33,051 bases of DNA. It comes from Butyrivibrio fibrisolvens 16/4 (GTDB lineage: Bacteria; Bacillota; Clostridia; Lachnospirales; Lachnospiraceae). The notes beneath the pieces are model-generated. The model had not been told where the DNA came from. It did not search any database and saw nothing but the letters and a program-made list of their open reading frames with translations. The stretch spans positions 979,824 to 1,012,874 of the forward strand of contig FP929036.1 of assembly GCA_000209815.1 (NCBI GenBank), written 5' to 3'. Below, one piece after another: positions 4,968-18,989 of the stretch. Within the stretch, counting starts at the first letter, position 1. Every line of letters starts with the position of its first letter. Made by a program: the position numbers and the translations under genes.

Positions 4968-5597
4968 ATGTCAGAGAAAATTTGCGTACTTGGTGTAGCA
5001 GGAGGTTCTGCTTCAGGCAAGACTACAATTATCAACAAATTACAGGACTTTTTCGGAGAGGATATTGCAGTAATCAGTCACGATTCATACTACAAGGCTC
5101 ATCCAGATATGACTTACGAGGAGCGTAGCCAGCTCAACTACGACCATCCAGATTCTTTCGAGTCAGATAGAATGGCAGAGGACGTTAGAAAGCTTATTAA
5201 GGGTCACGCTATCGATATGCCTGTTTACGATTATGTTAATCACAATCGTTCTAATGAAACAGTTAGAATCGAGCCAAAGACAGTTATCGTAATGGAAGGT
5301 ATTCTTATCCTCGAAAATAAAGAGCTTCGTGATTTGATGGATATTAAGATTTTCGTTGATACAGATGCTGATGAGCGTCTTATGAGACGTATTCAGCGTG
5401 ATATGATTGAGCGAGGACGTAGCATCGATTCAATCATCGACCAGTATTCAAAGACTGTAAAGCCAATGCACGAGGAATTTGTAGAGCCTTCTAAGAAGTA
5501 TGCAGATATCATCATCCCTCGCGGAGGAGAGAATGCAGCAGGTCTTGATATGCTCATTACATATATGACTAAGAAGCTTCACGAGGAAGAGGCTTAG
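4968..5597 (+). CDS. udk: Uridine kinase
   Basis: A 209-aa cytosolic kinase of the uridine/cytidine kinase family, which phosphorylates uridine and cytidine in pyrimidine salvage. The Walker A motif GGSASGKTT is near residues 11-19, followed by SHDSYYK, the nucleoside-site HPDSFESD, VMEGIL (Walker B region), the lid RDMIERGRS, and the C-terminal DIIIPRGG motif. Length is the family norm. TAAGGAG precedes the ATG, and the gene closely follows the YitT-type gene. A strong terminator follows. Confidence 0.95.
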   Translation: MSEKICVLGVAGGSASGKTTIINKLQDFFGEDIAVISHDSYYKAHPDMTYEERSQLNYDHPDSFESDRMAEDVRKLIKGHAIDMPVYDYVNHNRSNETVRIEPKTVIVMEGILILENKELRDLMDIKIFVDTDADERLMRRIQRDMIERGRSIDSIIDQYSKTVKPMHEEFVEPSKKYADIIIPRGGENAAGLDMLITYMTKKLHEEEA

Positions 5598-5657
5598 TTT
5601 ACTCAAAAAATAAAACAGAGGCTATTTACTCATCTTGTTTGTTTAATACGATGTTTG

Positions 5658-5710
5658 CGCCACAGGGGTTTTTGTTACTTCTCAACAAAAAAGCCTGTGG
5701 CGTCTTTTTT
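5658..5710 (+). terminator. Intrinsic terminator after udk
   Basis: Stem CGCCACAGG/CCTGTGGCG (5658-5666, 5694-5702) extended by an inner TTTTTGTT/AACAAAAA pairing, followed by TCTTTTTT. Confidence 0.9.
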
Positions 5711-5714
5711 GCCT

Positions 5715-5768
5715 TTGTTTACCAATCTTGCTGTGATATTATAGTAGTGCTATTCATTATAGGAATAG
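5715..5768 (+). promoter_or_regulatory. Candidate promoter and inverted repeat of the redox operon
   Basis: TTGTTT (5715-5720), a 16-base gap, then an extended -10 TGATATTAT (TATTAT at 5737-5742) form a plausible sigma-A promoter. Just downstream, CTATTC/GAATAG (5750-5755, 5763-5768) is a perfect 6-bp inverted repeat with a 7-base spacer, near the expected start of transcription, and could be an operator. A second reading (TTGCTG at 5728, TATTCA at 5751) is possible. Confidence 0.45.
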
Positions 5769-5815
5769 AAGGATAGCATTTTGTAATACGTTATATTAAA
5801 GGGAGAGATAATTAA

Positions 5816-6580
5816 ATGGGAAATAAGCCTATAGTGTTGGCTGTTGCTGGTAAAGGCGGAGTTGGTAAAACTTCACTTGCATCGGTGATGGTCAAGTTGT
5901 TAGTGGAAGCTTATCCAGACAAAAAGATTCTAGCAATCGATGCAGACCCTGCTGTTGGTTTATCTACAGCACTTGGTGTTGAGCCAGAGCTTACTCTTGA
6001 TGATATCAGGAAAGAGGCTGTGGAAGCTGCTGAGAACGGGGATGCCAAGGCTACTGTTGAGGTACTTGGCGAGGCAAGATACCGCATTTTTGATGCTATG
6101 GTCGAGATGGATGGCTTCTCTTTTATTGCAATTGGACGTCCAGAGGCTGCTGGATGTTACTGCAAGATTAACACATATCTTAAAGAGGTCATCGCACAGG
6201 TGGCTGATAATTTCGATTACATCGTTATCGATGGCGAAGCTGGTATCGAACAGATTAATCGTCGTGTTATGGAAAAGGTTACACACCTTGTTCTTATTAC
6301 AGACTCCAGCAAGAAAGGCTGCGGAGTGGTAAAGACTATCAAGGATGTGGCTGACAACCTTGTTATGTACGACAAGATTGGTGTGGTTGTAAACCGTGTT
6401 CCATCTGAAGATGTACTTCAGTATATGGATTTAGGTGACATTCCACTTTTAGGATGGATTCCAGCCGATGCCAATCTTACAGAACGCGATCTCAAAGGAG
6501 AATCCGTATTCTACATTCCAAACGAAGCGCCAATCGTGGAGGGACTACGCAATGCCCTACGTAATTTAGGCGTGCTATAA
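5816..6580 (+). CDS. CooC-type MinD-family ATPase (nickel-insertion type)
   Basis: A 254-aa cytosolic P-loop ATPase of the MinD/CooC family. It has the deviant Walker A GKGGVGKTS at residues 12-20, the switch I-like DADPAVGLSTALG near 42-54, and YIVIDGEAG as Walker B. A CYC motif at Cys114-Cys116 matches the CxC by which CooC dimers bind nickel. Known CooC proteins insert nickel into carbon monoxide dehydrogenase, and AcsF into acetyl-CoA synthase. No CODH or complete ACS lies in this window, but an ACS-beta-like gene and hypA are in the same operon. This is the first gene of the operon, with GGGAGAG upstream. The family call is firm; the client enzyme is inference. Confidence 0.88.
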   Translation: MGNKPIVLAVAGKGGVGKTSLASVMVKLLVEAYPDKKILAIDADPAVGLSTALGVEPELTLDDIRKEAVEAAENGDAKATVEVLGEARYRIFDAMVEMDGFSFIAIGRPEAAGCYCKINTYLKEVIAQVADNFDYIVIDGEAGIEQINRRVMEKVTHLVLITDSSKKGCGVVKTIKDVADNLVMYDKIGVVVNRVPSEDVLQYMDLGDIPLLGWIPADANLTERDLKGESVFYIPNEAPIVEGLRNALRNLGVL

Positions 6581-6607
6581 ATAAAAGATTTTAAATGAGC
6601 TGGGCGA

Positions 6608-6739
6608 AAGCTAGATATATGTATTCGAAAAGACCATAAGGACCCATCCCTACTTAGATGGCAGTTTACTGGCATCTTATGTAGGGCAATGAGGGCCGCA
6701 AGAGCGCAAGCGTGTCTTGAGAATATATATAACTAGCTT
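6608..6739 (+). ncRNA. Structured leader element, copy B
   Basis: A 132-base element with the same plan as copy A. A 19-bp stem (6608-6626 with 6721-6739; 17 Watson-Crick pairs, one G-U, one mismatch) has a sequence unrelated to copy A. An inner AAGAC/GTCTT pairing follows. The core CCATCCCTACTTAGATGG (6644-6661) and GCATCTTATGTAGGG (6672-6686) are identical to copy A, while the hairpin between them changes to CAGTTTACTG with pairing kept. A GC-GCAA-GC loop near 6703-6710 replaces GAAA. It lies inside an operon and ends 31 bases before the next start codon. Retained pairing with changed sequence is direct evidence of structure; the function is unknown. Confidence 0.68.
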
Positions 6740-6770
6740 GAAGCCGTAATATATAGGGAGAATTTAATAT

Positions 6771-7961
6771 ATGAAGGACTTAAAGCATCTTTATTACTTT
6801 GAGAATCTTCTTATGGATGCAGACAATGACCTTGTTAGACAGGCCCAGGCTGATGGCCGCGTCTGCGTTGGGTCCGTATGCTACCAGATTCCAGAAGTAC
6901 TAATGAACCTTGGTAATGCTTTTACAGTAAGACTTCGCGCACCACGTACAGGTTCCATGGAAATGGGAACCTATTATCTGACCAGTTTTTTATGCGAATA
7001 TTCCAGAGCATTACTTGAACGCGCCATCGAGGGTGGCTATCAATTTTTAGATTGTCTAATAGCACCAGATGGATGTACCATGATCAACCGTTGCGTTGAG
7101 AACATGGAACTTTTAAAAATCAATGATAAGGAGAATTTCTTCTATAAGTACCTTGAGGTACCTATGAAGGCTGATGATAACGGATTAAATCTTTACATTG
7201 GTCAGTGTAAGGAAAAGATTCTTGAGCCATTACACGAAAAGTTTGGCATAGACATCAGTGATGATGCTCTTAGAAAAGCAGTAGAGGATCACAATAAAAT
7301 CTGCCGAATCATTACAGAGCTTGGAAACTTCCGAAAGGAGGAAAAGCCTCGCATCACAGGCTACGAGTTCCATATTATCTGTATGTGCACTTATGTGTGT
7401 CCTCAGGATTTACTTATCGAGAAACTAGAGGAGACTCTGGAGGAAGTTAAGAATCGTCAGCCAGACGAGAAGTGGCCATTCAGAGCACGTGTGGCAGTTG
7501 TTGGTTCCGAGATTGATGATATCGATATGATTAAGCTTGTTGAGGAATCAGGAGCTTATGTATGTGCAGATAGATTCTGCTTCGGTTCATTACCAGGTCG
7601 CGAGGAAATCATCCTTAATGATGAGGAGGATGTGCTCACACAGATTTGTCGCCACTATATGATGAGCTGTATGTGCCCACGTCACATGGATACTCCTAAG
7701 ATGAATCGCAGACGTGAATACGTTGATCAAATTGCTAAGGAATACAAAGCAGATGGTATCATCTATGAGCAGATGAAGTTCTGTGACCCATGGGCTTATG
7801 AAAGAATGGTAGGAAGCCACGTACTTAGAGAAGAGTATGGTTATCCAGTACTTACAATCGATAGACCTTACGCTGTTGGTAGCTCGGGACAGATTCGTAC
7901 CCGTGTCCAGGCCTTCGTGGAGAGTATCGAAATCAAGAAAATCCAGGGAGGTAAGCACTAA
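6771..7961 (+). CDS. 2-hydroxyacyl-CoA dehydratase-like subunit (BcrC/BadD/HgdB family), first copy
   Basis: A 396-aa cytosolic protein of the HgdB/BcrC/FldB family, whose members hold [4Fe-4S] or double-cubane clusters and do difficult one-electron reductions after activation by an ATP-driven partner. Cysteines at 32, 37, 75, 95, 102 and 108 fall in the N-terminal half (VCVGSVC, APDGCTMINRC). C-terminal motifs MSCMCPRH and MKFCDPWAYE match the family's conserved KFCD region. GGGAGAATTT precedes the start. It overlaps the next gene's ATG by one base (TAATG), so the two are translationally coupled and probably form a heterodimer. Substrate unknown: it may be a CoA dehydratase, or a double-cubane reductase with a small substrate. 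Confidence 0.85.
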   Translation: MKDLKHLYYFENLLMDADNDLVRQAQADGRVCVGSVCYQIPEVLMNLGNAFTVRLRAPRTGSMEMGTYYLTSFLCEYSRALLERAIEGGYQFLDCLIAPDGCTMINRCVENMELLKINDKENFFYKYLEVPMKADDNGLNLYIGQCKEKILEPLHEKFGIDISDDALRKAVEDHNKICRIITELGNFRKEEKPRITGYEFHIICMCTYVCPQDLLIEKLEETLEEVKNRQPDEKWPFRARVAVVGSEIDDIDMIKLVEESGAYVCADRFCFGSLPGREEIILNDEEDVLTQICRHYMMSCMCPRHMDTPKMNRRREYVDQIAKEYKADGIIYEQMKFCDPWAYERMVGSHVLREEYGYPVLTIDRPYAVGSSGQIRTRVQAFVESIEIKKIQGGKH

Positions 7962-9510
7962 TGGGAAAAGCAGTTGGTAGCTCAAAGTTAGGCGAGCTTT
8001 ATAGCGGTGATAAAAAAGTATTTAAGCATCGTGAGTGGAGAGGTGTAAGGGATACATTTTACGATTACACCAGATGGCTTGGCATCATAGCAATGCTTGG
8101 CAAGTTCATGCTTCACCCAAAGAATGTAAAGGGATTTTTCAGATATCGTTGGATGCTCAATTATTTAGCAGTGCCAATGATGATAGATAAGCATTCAATG
8201 GGCCTTCGTGGTCCACAGCTTCGTATCTGCCGTGAGGAATACGATTTAGTTGCATCGGACGTTGCAAAGCTTCTTACTAAGATTTTTTCAATGGATCAGA
8301 ATCTAGGAGCAAGCCCAGAAAAGTCAAAGCATGTTGTCCTAATGGACGAAAATGAAATGACAAATATTATGTGCGGTTTCCCAAATCTTGAGGGACTCAG
8401 CTGGGAGACAGCAAGCTGTTATGTATGTGTTCTTCTTCAGGGAGACGCTATGACACATTACCTTGATGTTGTTCAGGAATGTGGTATGCCAGGTGATGTT
8501 TGCCCTATGCCAGCATCAGAGGCAGGCATATGTATCGATGGAGATATGCCAATCTTTGGTAAGTGTGCCGTTCAGTGTAACACTACCTGTGATGGTTCCC
8601 TTATGGGAAATGGTGTTATTTCCAGAGCTCTTGAGAGAAATGGTATTCCAGTTCATCAGCTGGCTACACCACTTCGTCACACAGAGCCAGGCGTTCAGGA
8701 GTATGCAGCTCAGGAGGTTAGAAATGCCATTGCTTTCATCGAGGAGCAGACTGGTGAAAAGTTCGATTGGGATTACTACTTCGAGTGCGCAAAGCGCATC
8801 AACATAGGTGCTCGCGAGTGTACAGAGTGGCTGGAGCTTTCAAAAACAGATTATCCACAGGTAATCGGAAATAACATCCTGCTTTATCGTGAGACAGAGT
8901 ATATGGCAATCGCTGGTAAGGTTCCAGCCTTCGCCGAGCTTGATAAAAAGATTACTAAGATGGCTACAGAGGCCTACAGAAAAAGACAATGCTTGCTAAG
9001 GAATACCGTCATCGTGCTGTAATCTGGGGCGTTCAGTCTCAGTTCTATACCGATTTCGTGGCATGGCTTTTGAACTGTTGGGGAATTCTTCCACTTTTCG
9101 ATATGCTTACAATGGTTTCCCTTGATCCTATTTCAGAGGACGACAAGGAGCAGGCATATTACGATATGGCTCACCAGTACGAGAACATGATTATGAGAAA
9201 CCGTACTCACGGTGGCTACGAGGTTCTTCTTGATGCTCTTTGGAGATATTGCGAGGAGTTCAATGCAGATATGGTTATCCTTTGGGAGCACATTGCCTGC
9301 AAGGCTCTTGATGGTATGCACGGAATGTTTGAGGAGCAGGCCAGAGCCCACGGCATCAAGCTTGTTTGGGTAAACCACGACCTTTACGACCCACGTGTCA
9401 TCCCACGTAAGAACCTTCGCCAGGATGTAAACCGCTATATGCGAAGCGTATTACGTGAAGAACCGTTAGATCCTACATTAGAGGACTACGATGATACTAA
9501 CCTATGGTAA
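7961..9510 (+). CDS. 2-hydroxyacyl-CoA dehydratase-like large subunit, second copy (frameshifted)
   Basis: A second, longer member of the dehydratase-subunit superfamily. As given, the frame stops at 9022 and a second frame runs from 8989 to 9510. One added base near 8980-8989 (A-run AAAAAGACAA) joins them into 516 aa without a gap. The N-terminal half is cysteine-rich, with ETASCYVC, GDVCPMPASEAGIC and KCAVQCNTTC, which would suit Fe-S ligation. The C-terminal half has the fold-typical VIWGVQSQFYTDFVAWLLN and WEHIACKALDGMHG stretches. It pairs with the first subunit upstream and the activase downstream. The cysteine richness is more than in the classical HgdA or FldC subunits as I recall them. 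Its exact orthologous group is uncertain. Confidence 0.8.
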
Positions 9511-9526
9511 TAAGGAGAATAGAAAG

Positions 9527-10318
9527 ATGAAATATTTTGGTGGATGTGATTCCGGTTCTACATACACAAAGTGTGTGATTATAGATGAAAATGGCAAGAT
9601 GGTAGCAGATGTTACTCTTAAGAGTCGCATTAATGCAGTTCTTTCTTGCCAGGATGCTTTGGACCAGGCAGTGGCACAGGTTCCAGATTTAAATAGTGCA
9701 AAGGACCTTACATATCTTGTAGGTACAGGTTATGGCCGTAACAAGGTTCCTTTCGCAGATGAGAACATTTCAGAGATTAGCTGTCACGCTATGGGCGTAC
9801 ACGTAGCTGATCCAGAGGTAAAAGCAATCATCGATATCGGTGGACAGGACGTAAAGGGTATCGCTGTTGATGTTGATGGAACAGTTCTTAACTTTGCTAT
9901 GAATGATAAATGTGCTGCTGGTACAGGACGTTTCTTCGAGGCAATGGCTAGAGCCTTCGAGATGGATTTGGATGAATTCTCAAATCTTTCACTTAAGGCA
10001 AAGAATGTGATTCCAATTACTGCTCAGTGCACAGTTTTCGCAGAGTCAGAGGTTATCTCTCTTGTAGGTGAGGGCAAGCCTATGGACGAAATCGCAGCAG
10101 GTATCGAGCTTTCAGTTGCAAAGCGTTGCTTCGTAATGTCAAAGAAGGCTGGTGCAGTTGATAAGATTACACTTACAGGTGGTTGTGCAAAGAATGCAGG
10201 ACTTAAGGCTGCCATCGAGCAGGTACTTAAGCTCAAGGTTATCGACCTTCCAATCGACCCACAGCTTATGGGAGCTCTCGGTGCCGCAGAATTTGCAAGA
10301 CAGAAAGGAAATAGATAA
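9527..10318 (+). CDS. Acyl-CoA dehydratase activase (HgdC/BadF-type ASKHA ATPase)
   Basis: A 263-aa ATPase of the acetate/sugar kinase-Hsc70-actin fold that hydrolyses ATP to push a low-potential electron into a dehydratase-type partner. Seen in order are GCDSGSTYTKCVIID (phosphate 1), VGTGYGR, DIGGQDVKGIAVD (phosphate 2), and NDKCAAGTGRFFE and CTVFAESE. The Cys of the last two ligate the [4Fe-4S] cluster shared across the dimer. TGGCAKNAG is the adenosine motif. The frame extends to an ATG at 9491 inside the previous gene, but the ATG at 9527 follows TAAGGAGAATAG at proper distance and gives the usual N-terminus. It overlaps the next gene's start at TAATG. The call is firm; the partner is inferred to be the two upstream subunits. 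Confidence 0.93.
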   Translation: MKYFGGCDSGSTYTKCVIIDENGKMVADVTLKSRINAVLSCQDALDQAVAQVPDLNSAKDLTYLVGTGYGRNKVPFADENISEISCHAMGVHVADPEVKAIIDIGGQDVKGIAVDVDGTVLNFAMNDKCAAGTGRFFEAMARAFEMDLDEFSNLSLKAKNVIPITAQCTVFAESEVISLVGEGKPMDEIAAGIELSVAKRCFVMSKKAGAVDKITLTGGCAKNAGLKAAIEQVLKLKVIDLPIDPQLMGALGAAEFARQKGNR

Positions 10319-10476
10319 TGTTAAAAGTATTATTAATTATCGCAATCGTATTTGTGTGCTTGTTTGTACTTTCATTTATTGTGTATTTCTTCAATCTCGA
10401 TATGAAGCTTACCAGCGCTATTCAGCCTTTACTTGCTAAGCACTATGATAAGATTAAGAGAAATAGAAAGATTTAA
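10318..10476 (+). CDS. Small single-span membrane protein, 52 aa
   Basis: A 52-aa ORF beginning MLKVLLIIAIVFVCLFVLSF. It has one N-terminal hydrophobic segment of about 23 residues and a basic C-terminus ending KIKRNRKI. The start overlaps the activase stop (TAATG) and AAAGGAA lies 8 bases before it. The stop is 3 bases before the next ATG. This tight packing in the operon argues that it is a real gene. I know no family for it. It may tether or assemble the redox complex at the membrane, which is speculation. Confidence 0.75.
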   Translation: MLKVLLIIAIVFVCLFVLSFIVYFFNLDMKLTSAIQPLLAKHYDKIKRNRKI

Positions 10477-10479
10477 TAA

Positions 10480-11223
10480 ATGAAGCTATATGATGAAAGC
10501 ATTAAGGAGTTGCTAGCAGGGATTGATATGACCTCAGCCAAGAAGCTTGATATCGTAAATGCGGATTGGGAAGATGTGGGTGACCACAATCTTATTCTTC
10601 GAGCAGATATGGCCTATGAGCTTGGTGGAGGAACATTTCCTGCAGTAAGTGGTATGGCTGTCACCTGCAATGATGAATTCGTAAATACGGATGAGGTACT
10701 ATTGATTGGACCAGACCTTGATGAAATAAAGGCTGATGCGCCTTACGCTAGAATCGCTATTGTAAAGGTGGCAGAGGATAGTCTTGGGGACGGCAACACA
10801 CTCTACAATGCTATTAGAAAAATCGAATATGTAAGGTATCACATAAATCCAGAGGGCTATATGACACGCGTCTCTGCATCTAACAACAGAGAACCGGTTC
10901 GCGTTGGCAAGGCTGCTCTTGATAAAGGACTTAATTTTGCTAAGGTCGGCAAATTGTTTTTGGATACCTACCACGAAAACAGAAATATTGAAGCTGTAAA
11001 GCTCATATTTATAACTGCGCCGGATTTTGACTACAAGTCATTATCTGATCAGGCAAAGCATCTTGAAGATATCACTGGCACGATAGATCATATCTTCAAG
11101 AATGTGATGATGGATTGCGGAAGTTGCTCGCTGCAGAAAATCTGCGACGAAGTCGAAGGTTTACGTGAGCTACATTTCCAGGAATTAAAGAAAGGGAGTA
11201 TTAATAATGCCAGAAATGAGTAA
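10480..11223 (+). CDS. Acetyl-CoA synthase beta-subunit-like protein lacking the A-cluster domain
   Basis: A 247-aa soluble protein. The run DEVLLIGPDLDEIKADA, then EYVRYHINPEGYMTRVS, then RVGKAALDKGLNFAKVGKLF and KLIFITAPD follows the order of motifs I recall from the middle part of the CODH/ACS beta subunit (AcsB/CdhC). The C-terminal A-cluster domain, with its CTLCQ and CGCFE motifs that bind nickel, is absent. Instead the protein ends with MMDCGSCSLQKIC (Cys213, 216, 222), a possible small Fe-S or metal site. It sits between the activase and the oxidoreductase, overlapping the latter by 17 bases. The relation to ACS is from memory of the family and should be treated as probable. Its role could be a docking or electron-transfer subunit. 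Confidence 0.65.
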   Translation: MKLYDESIKELLAGIDMTSAKKLDIVNADWEDVGDHNLILRADMAYELGGGTFPAVSGMAVTCNDEFVNTDEVLLIGPDLDEIKADAPYARIAIVKVAEDSLGDGNTLYNAIRKIEYVRYHINPEGYMTRVSASNNREPVRVGKAALDKGLNFAKVGKLFLDTYHENRNIEAVKLIFITAPDFDYKSLSDQAKHLEDITGTIDHIFKNVMMDCGSCSLQKICDEVEGLRELHFQELKKGSINNARNE

Positions 11224-14088
11224 AGCAATTATCCCACCACATATGGGGGATAAGGAGCCAAGCAAGAAGATTATCGAGCTTGGAAGAAAGATTACAGACG
11301 TTATGCCACACAAGATGTTTGGCGTAAAGGTAGAGGACCCAGAGTACTGGGGTCTTGCAGAAATCGTAACAGAGGAGATGGCTGAAGTTGGTCTTACAAT
11401 GAAGGTTCGTCACCACTATACATTTGAGGATCTCTGCAAAATGAACCCTGAGAAGGCAAAAGATAAAGAGGCTTTTCAGAAGTTACTTGATGATATGAGC
11501 TATATCGGACTTTTAGAGTACGACTATGGCAATCACTACGATCACAACGGACGTACAGCTCCACAGTCAGAGAGAAGATACACACTTCCTATCTTCGTTC
11601 CAGGTTCTGCAGAGCTTTTCAACATGGAAGAGTCAGTTCCAGGTGAGCGTTCAAACAATAGATTAAAGCAGCATCCAGCTGTTGCATCATTCTTTGAGAG
11701 AATGACATTTATGCCACTTGATGGATTAACACACCTTATCCCACCAGGAGGTGCTGGCGTAGGTATGCACGTTATTCCTGTAGAGAAGGCTATCGAGTTT
11801 GAAAATGAGAAGCTTGACCTCGAGCAGATTTCATACTGGCTCAAGAAATACGAAGGACACATCGGTGTAGGCCAGTGTTCATGCCGTGTATCACGTGCCT
11901 GCCTTGAAGAAGGTTGCGGTGATGACGAGATGAACTGGTGTATTGGTCTTGGTGATTTCGCTGATTACTGCCGTGAGACTGGTAAGGGTCACGATATCAC
12001 ATACGAAGAGGCTATGCGTATCGTTGAGCGTGCTGAGACACTTGGTTACGTTCACCAGATCACAAACATTGACGGCGAAAACAAGATTTTTGGTCTTTGC
12101 AACTGTAACGTAAATATTTGTAACGCACTTCGTACATCACAGCTTTTCAACACACCTAACATGTCACGTTCAGCTTACACAGCTCACGTAGAAGCTGAAA
12201 AGTGCGTAGCTTGTGGTAAGTGCGTAGAATACTGCCCAGCTGGTGCAGTTAAGCTTGGTCAGAAGCTTTGCAAGAAGGACGGCTCACAGGTAGAGTATCC
12301 AAAGGTAGTTCTTCCAGACAGAGTTCACTGGGGCAAGGATAAATATGACGAGGATTATCGTGATAACAACCGTAAGAACTGCTACGAAACAGGTACAGCT
12401 CCATGTAAGGTAGCTTGTCCTGCACACGTTTCTGTTCAGGGTTATGTAAACATGGCTAAGGAAGGCAGATACGAGGATGCTCTTGCTCTTATCAAGAAGG
12501 ACAACCCATTCCCAGCTATCTGCGGCCGTGTATGTAACAAGAGATGTGAGGCTGCTTGTACACGTGGTACTATCGATGCACCAGTTGCTATCGACGATAT
12601 CAAGAAGTTTATTGCTGAGCGCGATCTTCACGCTGAGACAAGATACATCCCACCAATCGATATCCCTTCAAACCGTTTAACACAGTGGGATGACAAGATT
12701 GCAATCATCGGTTCAGGTCCTGCAGGTCTTTCTTGTGCTTACTATCTTGCAACAAAGGGCTACAAGCCAACAGTATTTGAAAAGAACAGCCGTCCAGGTG
12801 GTATGCTCACATGGGGTATCCCAACATGGAAGCTTGAGAAGGATGTTGTTGAGGCTGAAATCGATGTTATCCGTCAGCTTGGCGTAGAGATTAAGTGCAA
12901 CGTTGAAGTTGGTAAGGACATCACTCTTGATGAGCTTCGTGCACAGGGTTTCAAGGCATTCTATGTTGCAATCGGATGCCAGGGCGGAAAGATTCCACCA
13001 ATCCCTGGAACAGATGCAAAGGACGGTATCGACATCGCTGTTACATTCCTTCACAAGGCACTTGAGGATCAGAGCCAGAAGATGGATGGAAACGTAGTAG
13101 TTGTTGGTGGTGGTAACGTTGCTATCGACTGCGTACGTACAGCTGCTAGATTTGGCGCAGGCAACCCTCAGATGTTCTGCCTTGAGGCAAGAGATGAGAT
13201 GCCAGCTAACAATATCGAAATCACAGAGACACTTGAAGAAGATATCGCAATCAACAATGGTTGGGGTCCAAAGGAAATCCTTAAGGATGCTGAGGGTAAC
13301 GTATCTGGTATTGTATTCAAGAAGTGTACATCTGTTAAGGATGCTGAAGGCAAGTTCAATCCACAGTACGATGAGAACGAGACAATGACTGTAGAGTGCA
13401 AGCACATCATCTTCGCTATCGGTCAGGGTATCGAGTGGGGCGGACTCCTCGGTGATGGTAAGGAAAAGTAGAGTTCTGGCATGGCAACTACCCAGTAGCT
13501 GACAAGCTTACATACCAGACAGCACAGCCAGATATCTTCGTTGGTGGTGATGTTTATTCTGGTCCTAAGTTCGCTATTGACGCTATCGAGGCAGGTAAGT
13601 GCGCTGCAGATTCTCTCCACAGATTCGTACAGCCAGGCTGCTCTATGACAATCGGTAAGAATCGTCGTGATTTTATTGAGCTTGACAAAGACAACATTCA
13701 TGTGGAAGAATATGACACAGCAGGACGTAATGAGCCAGCTATTGATACAAGCATTGATATGAAGCATTCATTCCGTGATGCTCACCTTACACTTACAGAG
13801 GAGCAGGTTAAGGCAGAGGCTAGCCGTTGCCTTAAGTGTGGTGCATCTGTAGTAGATGAGAATAAGTGTATTGGATGTGGTGTCTGCACAACTAAGTGTG
13901 CCTTCGACGCTATCCACCTTCACAGAACTCATCCAGAGTGCACACACATGGTACCTTCTGAAGATAAGTTCAAGCATATCGGTGCTTATGCTATTAAACG
14001 TGCCGCTAAGATCGCCTTCTCAAAGAAGAGCGAAGCAGAAAAGGCAGCAGAAAAGGCACACAAGGAGTATAAGCGTAGCCAGAAATAA
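11207..14088 (+). CDS. Multi-[Fe-S] FAD-dependent NAD(P) oxidoreductase, GltD-like (frameshifted)
   Basis: A large cytosolic flavoprotein, 960 aa after repair. The N-terminal half has Cys-rich segments CSCRVSRACLEEGC and CNCNVNIC, then a ferredoxin motif CVACGKCVEYCP. A GltD-type part follows: CKVACP and CGRVCNKRCEAAC for Fe-S, the FAD dinucleotide site IIGSGPAGLSCAYYLA, and an NAD(P) site VVGGGNVAIDCVRTAARFGA. As given, the frame stops at 13471. One more A in the run 13464-13467 restores EFWHGNYPVADKLTYQTAQP and continues through GGDVYSGPKFAIDAIEAG to a C-terminal CIGCGVCTTKCAFDAI ferredoxin domain. The likely role is NAD(P)H oxidation and passing electrons to the activase and dehydratase-like subunits, perhaps with bifurcation. 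Codon use is highly biased, like aspS. Confidence 0.85.
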
Positions 14089-14107
14089 TACTTGGTTACG
14101 GTAGTGA

Positions 14108-14266
14108 GCTGTACGTATACGAAACAACACAACCTAGGCAAGCGCGAGCAGGGGATACCGTGCCGAGCGAGGGAGGATCTACGCCGGCGGGAGGACCATC
14201 GCGAGAGTGCGGAGGGTGCCCTGCGGGAGCATGAAAAACTTAGAAGTTTCGTATACATAACACAGC
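14108..14266 (+). other. GC-rich hairpin element between oxidoreductase gene and hypA
   Basis: A 159-base element closed by a perfect 11-bp stem GTATACGAAAC/GTTTCGTATAC (14115-14125, 14246-14256) and an outer GCTGT/ACAGC (14108-14112, 14262-14266). The interior (about 14134-14231) is strikingly GC-rich beside its AT-rich surroundings, with GCAGGG/CCCTGC (14148-14153, 14219-14224) and a GC-GCGA-GC loop near 14142-14149. It has no convincing ORF. Like copies A and B it ends about 30 bases before the next start codon, but the core sequence is not the same. It may be a mobile palindromic element or a leader RNA. Confidence 0.55.
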
Positions 14267-14295
14267 GGGCTTATTTAGAAAGGGTAGTATAAATA

Positions 14296-14640
14296 ATGCA
14301 TGAATTAGGTATTGTGTTTCATGTAGCGAAACAGGTAGAGGAAGTTGCTATTGAGAACAACGCAGAGCACATCAATGAGGTAGTGCTCTCAATCGGTGAG
14401 GTTTCCACAGTCATTCCAGATTATTTGATTGACTGCTGGGCTTGGAATGCGAAAAAGTATCCAAGACTTGATGGCAGCAAGCTCACTTGCGAAATAATTA
14501 AGGCTGTGACCTTCTGCGAGGATTGCAAGCAGGAGTACGAGACAGTTGCCTATGGAAAGACTTGTCCACATTGTGGAAGCGGCAACACATATCTTGTCAC
14601 AGGAAATGAAGTTATACTTAAAGAAGTTATAGCGGACTAA
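14296..14640 (+). CDS. hypA: Nickel metallochaperone HypA
   Basis: A 114-aa protein that hands nickel to hydrogenase or, in some organisms, urease maturation. It begins with the invariant nickel-binding MHE and has the structural zinc site CEDC (74, 77) and CPHC (90, 93). Length is normal. It is the last gene of the operon, preceded by AAAGGGTAG and followed by a strong terminator. HypB and hydrogenase genes are not in the window. Its place beside a CooC-type ATPase suggests nickel delivery to a product of this operon, which is inference. Confidence 0.94.
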   Translation: MHELGIVFHVAKQVEEVAIENNAEHINEVVLSIGEVSTVIPDYLIDCWAWNAKKYPRLDGSKLTCEIIKAVTFCEDCKQEYETVAYGKTCPHCGSGNTYLVTGNEVILKEVIAD

Positions 14641-14643
14641 TCA

Positions 14644-14676
14644 AAGAGCCACGGATTTCCCGTGGCTCTTATTTTG
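14644..14676 (+). terminator. Intrinsic terminator closing the redox operon
   Basis: Perfect 10-bp stem AAGAGCCACG/CGTGGCTCTT (14644-14653, 14661-14670) with a 7-base loop, followed by ATTTTG. Confidence 0.9.
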
Positions 14677-14696
14677 TCATCTTGAATATAAATCCA

Positions 14697-14725
14697 TTGC
14701 GCACAATCAAATATTATTATATACT
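14697..14725 (+). promoter_or_regulatory. Promoter of the CcdA-TlpA gene with overlapping palindromic motif
   Basis: TTGCGC (14697-14702), a 17-base gap and TATACT (14720-14725). The -35 lies inside ATTGCGCACAATCAA (14696-14710), a near-palindrome (ATTG-CGCA-CAAT) that recurs exactly at 19625-19639 before the DtxR-type gene. A regulator binding there would block this promoter. MarR-type proteins are known to bind sites of this general shape, but the actual factor is not known. Confidence 0.6.
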
Positions 14726-14751
14726 TAGAAAAAATGATTATGAGGTGCAAA

Positions 14752-16032
14752 ATGAGTATAGTATCAGTTTTTATAGAAGGCTTGCTTAGCTTTTTCTCCC
14801 CATGTGTATTGCCGCTGATTCCCGTGTACATTGGTTATTTGTCTGGTGGCACATTAAAGACTACAGGGGATGGTCACATGGTTTATGATAGGAAAAAGGT
14901 CGTCATTAATACTATTTTCTTCGTCATTGGAATTAGTATGGCATTCTTTGTGCTGGGATTTGGTATCAGTGCAGTAGGTCGTTTCTTTAGTGGTTATCAG
15001 ATGATTTTTGCCAGAGCAGGTGGCATTATCATTGTTTTATTTGGTTTGTATCAGCTAGGGTTCCTAGGGACAAATAGAATCCTCAGTGGAGATTACAGAC
15101 TTCCTGTTCAGTTTGAAAAGATGACAATGTCACCAATCACTGCTATATTGATGGGATTTGTAATCAGCTTCGCCTGGACCCCTTGCATTGGTCCTGTGCT
15201 TTCATCAGTGCTTATTATGGCAGCCACAGCAGGCTCTTCGGCAAATGGATTCGGGCTTATCGCAGTATATACATTAGGCTATATTATTCCATTTATTTTA
15301 GTAGGATTCTTTACTAACACACTGCTTAATTTCTTTTCAAAGCATAAGGGTGTTGTTAAATACACTGTAAAAATCGGTGGTGTTATACTTATCGTAATGG
15401 GTCTAATGATGTTCACAGGAAAGATGAATAGCATTACTAGCTATCTGTCTTCTGTATCAGGAAGCAATATTGCCTCAGAACCTACCGTGGAGGAAAAATC
15501 TGACGTAGTGGAAATCCCAGATGAAACCGTGGAAGAGGATGCTGTAGTGGAAGAGGAGCCTGATGCTGACGAAGCTGCTACTGAAAAGATTGCAGCCCCA
15601 GATTTCACATTGACAGACCAGTATGGAAATACTCATAGTCTTTCAGATTATAAAGGCAAAATCATTTTTCTTAATTTCTGGGCTACATGGTGCCCTCCTT
15701 GTAGAGCAGAGATGCCAGATATTCAGGCTCTTTATGAAGAATACCAGAAGATGGATGACCCTGATGTTGTAATCCTCGGCGTGGCTTTTCCAAACTACGG
15801 TAAGGAACAGAGCGTGGAGGGCATTACACAGTTTTTAGATGAGAATGGCTACACTTATCCAGTGCTTATGGATACAGAAGCGTCACTTGTTTTGCCATAC
15901 TACATCACAGCATATCCAACCACCTTTATGATAGACCCTGATGGAAATGTGCTAGGCTACCTACCAGGTGGAATGACAAGAGACATTATGGAAAATGTAA
16001 TAGAGCAGGCTAGAGAGGCTAGCTATAAATAA
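14752..16032 (+). CDS. CcdA-TlpA fusion: membrane thiol-electron carrier with thioredoxin domain
   Basis: A 426-aa fusion. Residues 1 to about 235 form a CcdA/DsbD-beta type membrane domain with six hydrophobic segments and the two conserved motifs FFSPCVLPL (Cys18) and AWTPCIGP, which carry electrons across the membrane. An acidic, Glu/Asp/Val-rich linker (about 245-283) leads to an extracytoplasmic TlpA/ResA-type thioredoxin domain with NFWATWCPPCRAEMP (Cys314, Cys317) and a cis-Pro region AYPTTFMIDPDG. It would move reducing power from cytosolic thioredoxin to outside protein disulfides. The frame extends to an ATG at 14734, but GAGGTG before the ATG at 14752 gives the usual N-terminus. 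It is a single gene with its own promoter. Confidence 0.92.
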   Translation: MSIVSVFIEGLLSFFSPCVLPLIPVYIGYLSGGTLKTTGDGHMVYDRKKVVINTIFFVIGISMAFFVLGFGISAVGRFFSGYQMIFARAGGIIIVLFGLYQLGFLGTNRILSGDYRLPVQFEKMTMSPITAILMGFVISFAWTPCIGPVLSSVLIMAATAGSSANGFGLIAVYTLGYIIPFILVGFFTNTLLNFFSKHKGVVKYTVKIGGVILIVMGLMMFTGKMNSITSYLSSVSGSNIASEPTVEEKSDVVEIPDETVEEDAVVEEEPDADEAATEKIAAPDFTLTDQYGNTHSLSDYKGKIIFLNFWATWCPPCRAEMPDIQALYEEYQKMDDPDVVILGVAFPNYGKEQSVEGITQFLDENGYTYPVLMDTEASLVLPYYITAYPTTFMIDPDGNVLGYLPGGMTRDIMENVIEQAREASYK

Positions 16033-16050
16033 CTGTCTTATAGAAGTTTT

Positions 16051-16835
16051 TTACTTATACAGCTTTTTTACAACAGAATCTGGCACTTCAAAATGTTGAT
16101 AATCTTTGGAATTTTTCCAAGCTCCACCCCACTGAAAACCGTGGGCAATAAAGAGCTGATATGCCAAATCATTTTCATCTATTTTGTATGGGAAATCCTG
16201 GCTGCGGTCTACGTAATCGGCTGCATTGGCTGGCTCAATGGAAAGCTTTCCATTAACAGTTTTTACATATGGATTGTACAAGGTGTTAATATCCATTGCC
16301 AGACCATAGCCGTGCTTTGAAATCTTGGTTGTGTGGCTGATAAATCTAAAATTGAAGCTTGATGAGTTATTGTCTGCCATCGAACGTTCATCATCAGCAT
16401 AATACTCATCTACAAGCTTTATTTTCTCTATAGGATATTTAGCTTCGTATAGTGCCTGGAAAATTTCCAGCAAATCATCTGCAATATATTTGTTGCAGAT
16501 AATTTCACCTTCATGGGACTCTCCATCAAAGCCTACGTGTAGTACATGAAGATATCGTAAATCCGACACAGGCACAGTGCAGTCGTCCTTATAGGACTTT
16601 CCTTTTATTCTAGCGAAGATCTCACTATTCTTGTCAAATTCAATAGAGTAGAAATCCTTATTCTCTTTTGATTCTTCCTGGTTCATATTATTTTCCTTTG
16701 ATGATACTTTTTTGAAGTTTGATTAACTATAGTGTTATTATCCTTTGAAGTTTTTGCTTTTGAATTCTGCATACCGCCGCAGGTTGTGAAAATCAGGCAT
16801 CCTGCAAACAATAAGGCAATTATTTTTTTCCTCAT
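16051..16835 (-). CDS. M15-family (VanY/CwlK-like) peptidase lipoprotein, frameshifted
   Basis: A predicted surface lipoprotein with a D-Ala-D-Ala carboxypeptidase/endopeptidase domain acting on cell-wall peptides. The open frame starts at 16686, but the reading frame from ATG 16835 (MRKKIIALLFAGC, with GTGGGAAT upstream) gives a signal peptide and a lipobox-like FTTC. It joins the main frame if one base is added to the six-base run at 16708-16713, giving 261 aa. Zinc-site motifs SKHGYGLAMDIN (HxxxxxxD type) and DYQHFE are intact, and WGGAW precedes the last one as in M15C enzymes. Its upstream region holds a 73-bp tandem repeat array. Confidence 0.83.
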
Positions 16836-16957
16836 ATTCCCACATCTTTCAATCACATTTATATAGGCCGTTGATTTCCTAGGAAGACAAGCTCCTTTTC
16901 TGTATTGATTCTATCATTATTCAAGGTCTAGGGGCAGAGTATCTTTTGTTTTTTGAA

Positions 16958-17301
16958 ATTTATCACAGAGAACCTTAGTGAAGCTCAATATCTCATTTTG
17001 AGATTGATAAAAACTATTGATATCATCGAAATTTATCACAGAGAACCTTAATGAAGCCCAATATCTCATTTTGAGATTGATAAAAACTATTGATATCATC
17101 AATATTTATCACAGAGAACCTCAGGAAAGCTTAATCTTTCGTTTTTGATTTGATAAAAAACAGCATTAATTGGAGAAATTTATCAATGGAAAAATGCAAA
17201 AAGCGGCTTACAGGATTTTATAGTGATAAAATACAACCGACAGCAAGAAGATTTATCAAAAGAGAAACGGGAAATGTACTCTCCAGAAGTTTCCAGTGAT
17301 A
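16958..17301. repeat. Five-unit tandem array of about 73 bp with TTTATCA...TGATAAA arms
   Basis: TTTATCA occurs at 16959, 17032, 17105, 17179 and 17252, and its complement TGATAAA at 17005, 17078, 17151, 17224 and 17295. The period is 73 bp (71-74). Units 1 and 2 are almost identical, unit 3 is diverged, and units 4 and 5 share little but the arms. Units 1 and 2 also hold an inner palindrome ATCTCA-TTT-TGAGAT. The array fills the 663-base gene-free gap 16836-17498, upstream of the M15 gene and beyond the end of the DnaJ-like operon. The rest of that gap holds a terminator and no convincing gene. Confidence 0.85.
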
Positions 17302-17330
17302 AAATGAACCAGAAAACTAAATAAAGTAAA

Positions 17331-17368
17331 AAAAGACCCTTGGGTGGCTGAAGCCCAAGGGTCCTTTT
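17331..17368 (-). terminator. Terminator of the zinc-ribbon/DUF5685/DnaJ-like operon
   Basis: Perfect 10-bp stem GACCCTTGGG/CCCAAGGGTC (17335-17344, 17354-17363) with A-runs on the left and T-runs on the right, so it could work in both directions. It lies 130 bases beyond the DnaJ-like stop; that 130-base stretch holds nothing I can assign. Confidence 0.8.
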
Positions 17369-17498
17369 TCTTGCATATCCTATAAAATGAACATGCAGAT
17401 ATAGGGAGAAAATATATGATCGGTCCGAATGACCTTGTAATAATCAAAAATAATATATGCCATAGCCTAAAAGGCTGGTCATATTCAAAAATGTAAAT

Positions 17499-18136: not shown

Positions 18137-18989
18137 CTATTTCTCCTTACAAGTAGTATCTTTTTCTTTCCTTTAAGCTGTAGATATTCGTATCTGGTCC
18201 AAACACCTGAGTAAATAATATTTCTAAGAATATCAACATTTTCTACTATAGGAAGTCTCTCGAAAGATTTGGCACATTCTGCCATAAGTGAAGTAAGATT
18301 AATCTTAACAAAGCACTCAAATTCCTTTGGAGATTCTTTTTTTAGAAATATGAGAGGATTGTAGCTTCCTCTTTTTTCATCTTTTTTTATATCATCATAG
18401 GCATCGATTATATAAATGAATTTGCCCATGTAATATCCCATACAATGTAAGGTCTGCCCCCAGGAGTCCTGCTTCCAATTAAATAATTCACCAAGCATTT
18501 CTCCAGTATAGCTGGAAACGACATCAATATTTGTTTCTCGATTTTTCTCGGCAATAGAAAGCTTTTTGATATATTTTTCAACAGCTAATGTTTGCCTAGG
18601 GTATAAATCTTTTATTTTATCGTAATCTTTTTTAATGAATGGGCTGCCATTCCTGAAAGTTTGGAGCCATCATCTGCATAGTTATCCAAAAGGCTGTGAT
18701 AGGACAAAATGATATCCATAGCAGCTGCGTATTCGATTGCTTTGCTGGAGAAGCCATGCTTTTTCTTGGCAGGATGAATCATACATCTGAAATCTTCCTG
18801 GTTGATTTCTGGTTCGTAAAGACTTTGAAGCAGAATAGCTAAAAAACATAAATCAAAATTCAAAAGCATTTGTCCTTTGAAACCCGCTACTTTGCCAAGC
18901 TGACGACACAGGCCACAGTAGAAGCTTTGATATATTCGCTTGTCCTCAGAGGACAGCTGGCTTCGATTTGCATTGATATATCCAAACAA
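18137..18989 (-). CDS. DUF5685 family protein (two frameshifts)
   Basis: A helical protein starting [20 protein letters not shown] with [12 protein letters not shown] (a CxxC-type pair) near residue 28, typical of DUF5685, whose function is unknown. As given, the frame is split. It stops at 18612, resumes in another frame to 18088, and there overruns the DnaJ-like start. Adding one base in the six-base run 18628-18633 joins the halves. Adding one in 18161-18165 gives the ending [10 protein letters not shown] with a stop at 18137, just before the next gene. The repaired product is 284 aa. The start is TTG, with AAGAAGGTG inside the end of the upstream gene. I am sure of the first break and fairly sure of the second. 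Confidence 0.8.

Follow-up and report, generated by a model that had tools for sequence, protein, structure and literature searches.

The reactions of ATP-driven double-cubane reductases are among those of lowest potential in biology, and to our knowledge the way in which the clusters of these enzymes are assembled has not been settled. According to PMC11971306, the double-cubane [8Fe-9S] cluster of BzdN, a subunit of benzoyl-CoA reductase (BCR), is bound by C36, C73, C100, C263, C293 and C327, and the double-cubane cluster protein (DCCP) forms homodimers of which either subunit carries a double cubane. A cousin of the CooC-type ATPases adjoins acetyl-CoA synthase (ACS) in the acetogen cluster of strain Y (PMC9765523, excerpt). 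IsrA, a putative isoprene reductase of Acetobacterium wieringae, belongs to a family of 988 homologs of which 73% lie near hypA and 56% near hypB, and whose members are proposed to act as reductases themselves (PMC10134865, excerpt). Here we describe a locus in which relatives of all these proteins meet, in a window of 33,051 nucleotides (positions 979824-1012874 of the one-contig, 3.16 Mb genome of Butyrivibrio fibrisolvens 16/4; positions below are those of the window). Seven genes, cooC, hgdA, hgdB, act, acsL, ox and hypA, lie on the + strand between 5816 and 14640. A preliminary description had listed these genes as one operon, and all of them are present in the order given, although it counted eight. 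We consider it somewhat better than an even bet that the locus is a two-module redox operon, combining an ATP-driven class I BCR-like reductase and a CooC/AcsL unit with an IsrA-type module.

The reductase assignment starts from the ligand patterns of the two subunits. hgdA (6771-7961, +) encodes a double-cubane-type HGD-D subunit of 396 aa (PF06050, 291 bits) whose C37, C75, C102, C270, C302 and C338 align one for one, in that order, to the six BzdN ligands. This six-cysteine pattern is complete in nine of the ten HgdA sequences compared, that of the window included; the tenth, from locus L106 (loci and genomes carry our own L and G numbers), lacks exactly three, at the positions of BzdN C36, C263 and C293, and its three remaining cysteines appear to match the single-cubane ligands of BzdO. 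The partner HGD-D subunit, HgdB, is encoded at 7961-9510 (+) by two frames in the window and by a single 516-aa gene in relatives, and it was modelled on the intact orthologue of L009 rather than on the broken window gene (mean pLDDT 72.5). C181, C210 and C447 (L009 numbering) fall at cysteines of MbdO and are kept in 11/11, 11/11 and 9/11 HgdB sequences. Foldseek placed the L009 model closest to the chain of BzdO length in BzdNO (1.2e-12) and to HadB-type 3o3m_A (2.1e-12), with fold likeness to DCCP as well. One more cysteine of HgdB, C373, was considered as a remnant of the double-cubane ligand set and rejected. It is suitably spaced, but the MbdO alignment and its position on a helix place it elsewhere, and it is present in 7/11 sequences only.

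Neither subunit falls within any of the curated families tested. The best NCBIfam match of window HgdA is DCCP (NF040772), at 141 bits against a cut-off of 350; in the BCR subunit families (TIGR02263, TIGR03190, TIGR02260 and TIGR03191 were checked), where the cut-offs are 421 and 454 bits, it reaches 90 and 88, and for HadC (NF052456) 90 against 700. HgdB of L009 scores 37 bits against 350 for NF040772 and 13 against 750 for HadB (NF052455), with no match to the BCR B/O models at E <= 0.1; HgdB of L034 obtains 14 and 15 bits from those models, with cut-offs of 487 and 449. Because HgdA and HgdB pass no family cut-off, the pair would be class I BCR-like by anatomy and outside every curated subunit family tested. 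The next gene, act (9527-10318, +), encodes an ATP-driven activase of 263 aa (ASKHA; HadI/BcrAD type) that is over the TIGR00241 cut-off (213.5 vs 125.4 bits); its cysteines 129 and 168 are presumably cluster ligands. Translation probably starts at 9527: for 18 of 20 relatives the alignment begins no earlier than residue 7-13 of the longer reading frame.

These results bear on one alternative, an ordinary 2-hydroxyacyl-CoA dehydratase or BCR acting on a CoA substrate. The proteins belong to the same superfamily and the activase exceeds its cut-off; in addition, the divergent set of L105 includes two activases and has an acyl-CoA dehydrogenase in its vicinity, and genes of the CoA ligase, thiolase and CoA-transferase types are close to a related set (L067). 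However, window HgdA and L009 HgdB stay far below the cut-offs given above, and the dehydratases are described as lacking a double cubane (PMC11971306, excerpt), whereas HgdA has all six ligands. The preliminary description had pointed to a CooC-linked activase and dehydratase-type pair with no gene to supply a CoA substrate, and we agree: among 14 flanking window genes compared with Pfam, a set that leaves out some small frames, none is a CoA-transferase, dehydrogenase or acyl-CoA gene. We therefore regard a conventional CoA enzyme as unlikely.

The association of these genes is recurrent. Genomes were surveyed in a class sample (391), a phylum sample (398), a genus sample (29) and a sample of one other family, that of G184 (40). 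A stand-alone acsL was found in 20/29 genus genomes, 7/391 of the class sample, 2/398 of the phylum sample, where the other 70 matching genomes were counted as full ACS by open-frame length (412-814 aa) alone, and 4/40 of the family of G184. A contig scan (21 loci) and whole-genome searches together gave 34 acsL loci for comparison, the window included, with act in 33, cooC in 31, hgdB in 29, hgdA in 27, hypA in 20 and ox in 17. All five core genes (cooC, hgdA, hgdB, act and acsL) occur together in 27/34 loci, and their co-occurrence is therefore more than chance; 24 of these 27 loci have the window order, and three (L105-L107) read hgdA-hgdB-act-acsL-cooC. Contig ends cut all three loci that have no cooC, L008, L020 and L033, of which L008 is also the only locus lacking act; the loci without ox include L020 and L033, which end soon after acsL. 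At L015, L016, L017 and L110, hgdA and hgdB are missing from the locus although the contig continues. Carriers of the five-gene set belong to the Lachnospiraceae (f1) and to at least three other families (f11, f56 and f169), with divergent sets in G593 (L105), G821 (L106) and G830 (L107); the closest named relatives of window AcsL are from Pseudobutyrivibrio. Many loci have the five genes with neither ox nor hypA, and the operon is thus best read as two separable modules, cooC-hgdA-hgdB-act-acsL (module 1) and ox-hypA (module 2). The preliminary description would have been refuted if hypA and cooC were never linked to the set; this is not the case, cooC being present in 31/34 and hypA in 20/34 loci.

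The most distinctive member of module 1 is AcsL. acsL (10480-11223, +) encodes a CdhC-like protein of 247 aa made of a stand-alone ACS middle domain and a D-C-x2-C-x5-C-x9-H tail (PF03598, 35.1 bits vs cut-off 24). A profile of 15 AcsL sequences matches ACS residues ~327-483 (E 2e-8), and with the AF2 model (mean pLDDT 83) the best Foldseek match in the PDB is at 3.8e-10, all 22 matches at E <= 0.001 being ACS entries; a single-sequence search of the PDB returned a designed helical protein as its sole match. AcsL scores below 39 bits against NCBIfam ACS cut-offs of 356 and more. The three tail cysteines are kept in 15/15 and 11/11 aligned sequences, and a histidine ten residues on is present in 8/11. 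In two true ACS proteins (L072 and L073) the motif is C-x2-C-x8-C-x9-C, with CGC further on; the spacing to the AcsL histidine is that to the fourth ACS cysteine, and the CGC nickel site is not present in the 11 AcsL sequences aligned. In ACS these motifs hold the A-cluster ligands. The histidine was considered as a universal fourth ligand and rejected, since it is found in only 8/11 sequences. By profile and fold, AcsL is the middle domain of ACS with a cut-down A-cluster motif.

AcsL is accompanied by a CooC/MinD-type ATPase. cooC (5816-6580, +) encodes 254 aa with a P-loop and a metal-binding-type C-Y-C motif at residues 114-116 (PF01656), and its closest solved relative is CooC (PDB 3kje, E 6.6e-18). 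The CxC motif, with its putative role in nickel binding, and the P-loop (a deviant Walker A) are kept in 13/13 cassette or related CooC proteins, and CxC also in two CooC2-type proteins of ACS clusters. The window and L034 proteins are 33-45% identical to the divergent members of L067 and L105-L107 and 22-29% identical to CooC beside ACS, and the cassette CooC therefore looks like a subfamily of its own. L067 (G184, 7266-13972) holds such an ATPase in a BCR-like set with two activases and the CoA-related genes named above, although transposase-like frames (identified by eye) separate hgdA from the activases. No acsL was detected in the 19 kb examined around L067; this is evidence against a strict CooC-AcsL pairing and speaks for a wider role of CooC than of AcsL within the reductase family.

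Two further readings turn on what AcsL does. It could be an electron carrier whose Cys3 [4Fe-4S] cluster reduces the activase in place of ferredoxin, with CooC maturing the reductase. acsL is found with act in 33/34 loci, its three invariant cysteines fit one cubane, and L067 shows CooC without acsL; AcsL is, however, related to a nickel-enzyme domain and not to a ferredoxin, and it is paired with an ATPase whose cousin adjoins ACS in acetogen clusters (PMC9765523, excerpt). We hold an electron carrier to be possible, if tentative. Alternatively, module 1 could be a nickel-dependent member of the BCR/DCCP family in which CooC loads nickel onto AcsL, the truncated A-cluster site of AcsL being either a working Ni-Fe-S centre in the electron path or a nickel donor to HgdB. 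This proposal is doubtful; if it were true, an organometallic-type reductase would have been built from relatives of ACS and BCR, two of the most demanding anaerobic enzymes.

The kinship of AcsL with ACS also raises the idea of a non-canonical replacement for carbon monoxide dehydrogenase (CODH)/ACS in CO2-fixing Lachnospiraceae that have no known CODH/ACS genes. An ACS-related protein and CooC are present, and according to PMC7000372 (excerpts) Candidatus Galacturonibacter soehngenii, which has no CODH/ACS genes, fixes CO2 into acetate, while the pathway of Pseudobutyrivibrio xylanivorans is partial. Yet the CGC site is missing from AcsL, whose match to ACS is confined to the middle of that enzyme, and 23 of 25 cassette genomes have no ACS over cut-off, 23 of 25 likewise no strong CFeSP match. 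CODH is over cut-off in 10 of the 25 and ACS in two; a CFeSP-type match passes the Pfam cut-off in nine, of which seven score 24.8-28.9 bits over short stretches and two are strong. G184 and G296 carry the cassette together with true CODH/ACS, and in G593, which is not among the 25, acsL is accompanied by a frame of ACS length. Such a replacement is extremely improbable in our view. A cassette that serves CODH/ACS was rejected for the window genome, which has no CODH match, no ACS match besides acsL (below cut-off) and no strong CFeSP match; one CdhD-type match stands just at the cut-off. As a separate observation, eight of the genomes with Pseudobutyrivibrio loci (G394, G396 and G398-G403) encode a CODH of ~700 aa over cut-off, with no ACS over cut-off and no strong CFeSP match.

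Module 2 has a different affinity. ox (11207-14088, +), in two frames here and 960 aa long in relatives, encodes an FAD/Fe-S oxidoreductase whose core is GltD-like and whose C-terminal part holds a ferredoxin site; as in IsrA, an oxidoreductase of clade 9, it has an N-terminal pair of CxC motifs 74 residues apart (CSC 224/226 and CNC 298/300 in L009 ox; 180/182 and 254/256 in IsrA). By description and motifs it would be of the IsrA type. hypA (14296-14640, +) encodes HypA (PF01155, 100 bits) with an N-terminal MHE and two CxxC motifs. Homologues of ox away from module 1 stand beside a CobW/HypB-family gene (L058, in the window genome) or beside hypA (L068 and L070), and HypA and CooC therefore probably serve different enzymes. 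At another site of the window genome (L036 of G000), a second hypA lies with NuoD/hydrogenase-type and hyp genes, the large-subunit-like protein being in two frames.

This evidence bears on the view of the preliminary description, in which the whole run is one enzyme system with a single new nickel centre served by CooC and HypA and with ox as electron source. The genes do form a continuous run that ends in a terminator-like site, ox and hypA occur in 17/34 and 20/34 loci, and L015-L017 keep hypA with cooC-act-acsL where ox is gone from the locus, an arrangement that speaks for a link of hypA to module 1. On the other hand, the modules part in many genomes and the link between hypA and ox is a property of the IsrA family (PMC10134865, excerpt), so that the two nickel proteins no longer point to one centre. 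The role of ox as electron source is weakened too, by its presence in half of the loci and by the proposal that its family members are themselves reductases. A single system is, to us, quite unlikely.

We infer the electron path, the reductive reaction and the role of AcsL in the favoured two-module operon as follows. The activase would hydrolyse ATP and hand single electrons to the double-cubane [8Fe-9S] cluster of HgdA, from which they would reach the [4Fe-4S] cluster of HgdB, and at the open site of that cluster an inert substrate of unsaturated or aromatic-like character may be reduced. AcsL and the CooC-type ATPase would most likely form a metal or Fe-S maturation and docking unit, whose service may extend to further HgdAB pairs with genes at other sites of the same genomes. 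Module 2, which is attached to module 1 in Pseudobutyrivibrio and in some relatives, would supply a flavin/Fe-S reductase of the IsrA type together with a nickel chaperone of its own. Low-potential, ATP-driven reduction of such an unsaturated or aromatic-like compound is suggested by the BCR ligand set, by the acyl-CoA dehydrogenase near L105 and by flavin reductase neighbours: a flavin ene-reductase-type neighbour is present as ox in most Pseudobutyrivibrio loci and in L022, L023 and L111, an Old Yellow Enzyme-type reductase directly follows acsL in L032, and a looser neighbour of the ene-reductase type stands some kilobases off in L106 and L107 (family assigned for the L106 protein).

Service to distant pairs is suggested by the distribution of hgdAB. 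Twelve of the 14 genomes searched (the window's and those of named Pseudobutyrivibrio) have an hgdA outside the module 1 locus, as a second copy in eight and as the only one found in G394 and G401-G403 (the module 1 locus of G394 is cut by a contig end); at the eight outside sites read, hgdB is adjacent or within 1.4 kb. Because G401-G403 (L015-L017) combine cooC-act-acsL-hypA, with no hgdAB at the locus, with hgdA and hgdB elsewhere in the genome, and because at E <= 1e-15 TIGR00241 matches nothing in G402 and G403 but the cassette act and a two-domain protein of ~1430 aa, cooC-act-acsL may be able to serve HgdAB encoded at a distance. The neighbours of orphan hgdAB pairs were considered as substrate clues and dropped, as they differ between genomes. 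Several other arrangements were seen. In L032 (G223) two divergent hgdAB pairs stand back to back (5454-8336 and 9324-12301) with cooC between them, and a third hgdA lies elsewhere in the genome. In L061 (G401) a NifH-like and two NifDK-like proteins (13683-17422), below every NCBIfam cut-off listed, are encoded downstream of an orphan hgdAB and a metK-like gene. In G394 and G401 a frame of ~700 aa matches both the activase and the HGD-D family, and a second activase adjoins it.

The window copy itself is not intact. The breaks in hgdB (8979/8980) and in ox (13467/13468, leading to TAG at 13469-13471) each correspond to one base missing next to an A-run, and for each gene 11/11 single-frame orthologues compared map to two frames in the window; in relatives both genes are mostly in one frame. 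Programmed frameshifting was rejected, since relatives read through in a single frame. A decaying operon that has lost its function in this strain would account for hgdB, ox and the second hgdA copy of the genome all being broken. However, 4/30 testable genes are split in the stretches of the window genome examined, including a gene at 18160-18989 that has no relation to the operon and is in two frames against 4/4 relatives, and a NuoD/hydrogenase-large-subunit-like protein elsewhere is likewise in two frames that match consecutive parts of its family. Both examined breaks are one-base deletions in A-runs, which we take as typical of long-read error, and the compared relatives are intact. Decay is thus very unlikely, and because other genes of the assembly are broken too, the breaks in hgdB and ox are likely sequencing or assembly errors.

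Several observations weigh against the two-module reductase that we favour. The third HgdB ligand is a histidine in L106 and L107, the AcsL tail histidine is missing in L105-L107, and the tail cysteines of AcsL sit in a low-confidence part of the model. L067 indicates that CooC and AcsL need not act together, and hypA after acsL without ox, in L008 as well as in L015-L017, would tie hypA to module 1. As for the substrate, the flanking window genes searched hold no linked substrate gene, the neighbours of L034 (AOR and Fe-ADH) point in no particular direction, and the neighbourhoods of the orphan hgdAB pairs vary from genome to genome. G401 has two further activases besides the cassette act, and the window copies of hgdB and ox are frame-broken.

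The surroundings of the genes add little to this picture. A terminator-like hairpin (14644-14670, +; 11 pairs, 7 of them G-C) directly follows hypA and has the longest stem of the six terminator-like sites found in 5500-15000, against 6.4 expected from shuffles; neither promoter-like nor terminator-like sites around the operon are commoner than in shuffled sequence. The biased codon use that had hinted at high expression is not borne out for the operon taken whole, and gives no support to high expression of all its genes: the effective number of codons is 42.8 for the operon vs 45.3 for the other window genes tested, and it is lower only for the ox parts (32.5 and 35.9), act (37.1) and the first hgdB part (38.5), and not for cooC (46.3), hypA (51.2) or acsL (56.1). 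The non-coding stretch between ox and hypA (14089-14290) is GC-rich and may be a dispersed repeat or a small RNA, since the genome holds three more copies of it, all partial and diverged (74-78%); the Rfam search gave no matches, for this stretch or otherwise. The gap of 190 bases between cooC and hgdA (6581-6770) appears structured by eye, and its length differs among relatives.

Our data tie together two enzyme families that have been studied apart, ACS and BCR/DCCP. The link of a CooC ATPase and an ACS-related protein to such a reductase provides concrete candidates for maturation of, or electron delivery to, double-cubane reductases. The reach of this reductase system, marked by acsL, extends to 20/29 genomes of the genus sample, and the extra HgdAB pairs suggest several substrates.

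Compared with known systems, the locus is closest to class I BCR (BzdNO/BzdPQ and MbdNO/MbdPQ), with which it shares a six-cysteine double-cubane subunit, a three-cysteine [4Fe-4S] subunit and an ATP-driven activase; it differs in having one activase instead of two (except in L105), in the additional CooC and AcsL, in an HgdB of 516 aa whose helical N-terminal region is modelled as longer, in the lack of CoA genes found beside it and in scores below the family cut-offs. DCCP is the best NCBIfam match of HgdA and has all six ligand positions in common with it, but is a homodimer, whereas the partner HgdB keeps only three ligands. The 2-hydroxyacyl-CoA dehydratases (HadBC/HadI) share the fold and the activase, and differ in that the double-cubane ligands are kept here and that no acyl-CoA pathway genes were found beside the operon. 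With ACS (AcsB/CdhC) and CooC2 the locus shares the aligned region, the start of the A-cluster motif and a nearby CooC-type ATPase; in contrast to ACS, AcsL is one domain only, with C-x2-C-x5-C in place of C-x2-C-x8-C-x9-C and no CGC, and the window and L034 CooC proteins are just 22-29% identical to the ACS-linked ones. The ox-hypA pair resembles IsrA with HypA/HypB in its CxC motifs, its GltD-like core and its terminal ferredoxin site, but stands here in an operon with a BCR-like module and with no hypB, the CobW/HypB-family gene being beside the second ox. For the identification itself, PMC10418091, PMC7306483, PMC4148979 and PMC10936416 yielded nothing further. We found no description of this union of reductase, ACS domain and CooC in the open-licence PMC text searched, and within that literature the operon appears to be a new combination, a variant of the BCR/DCCP kind.

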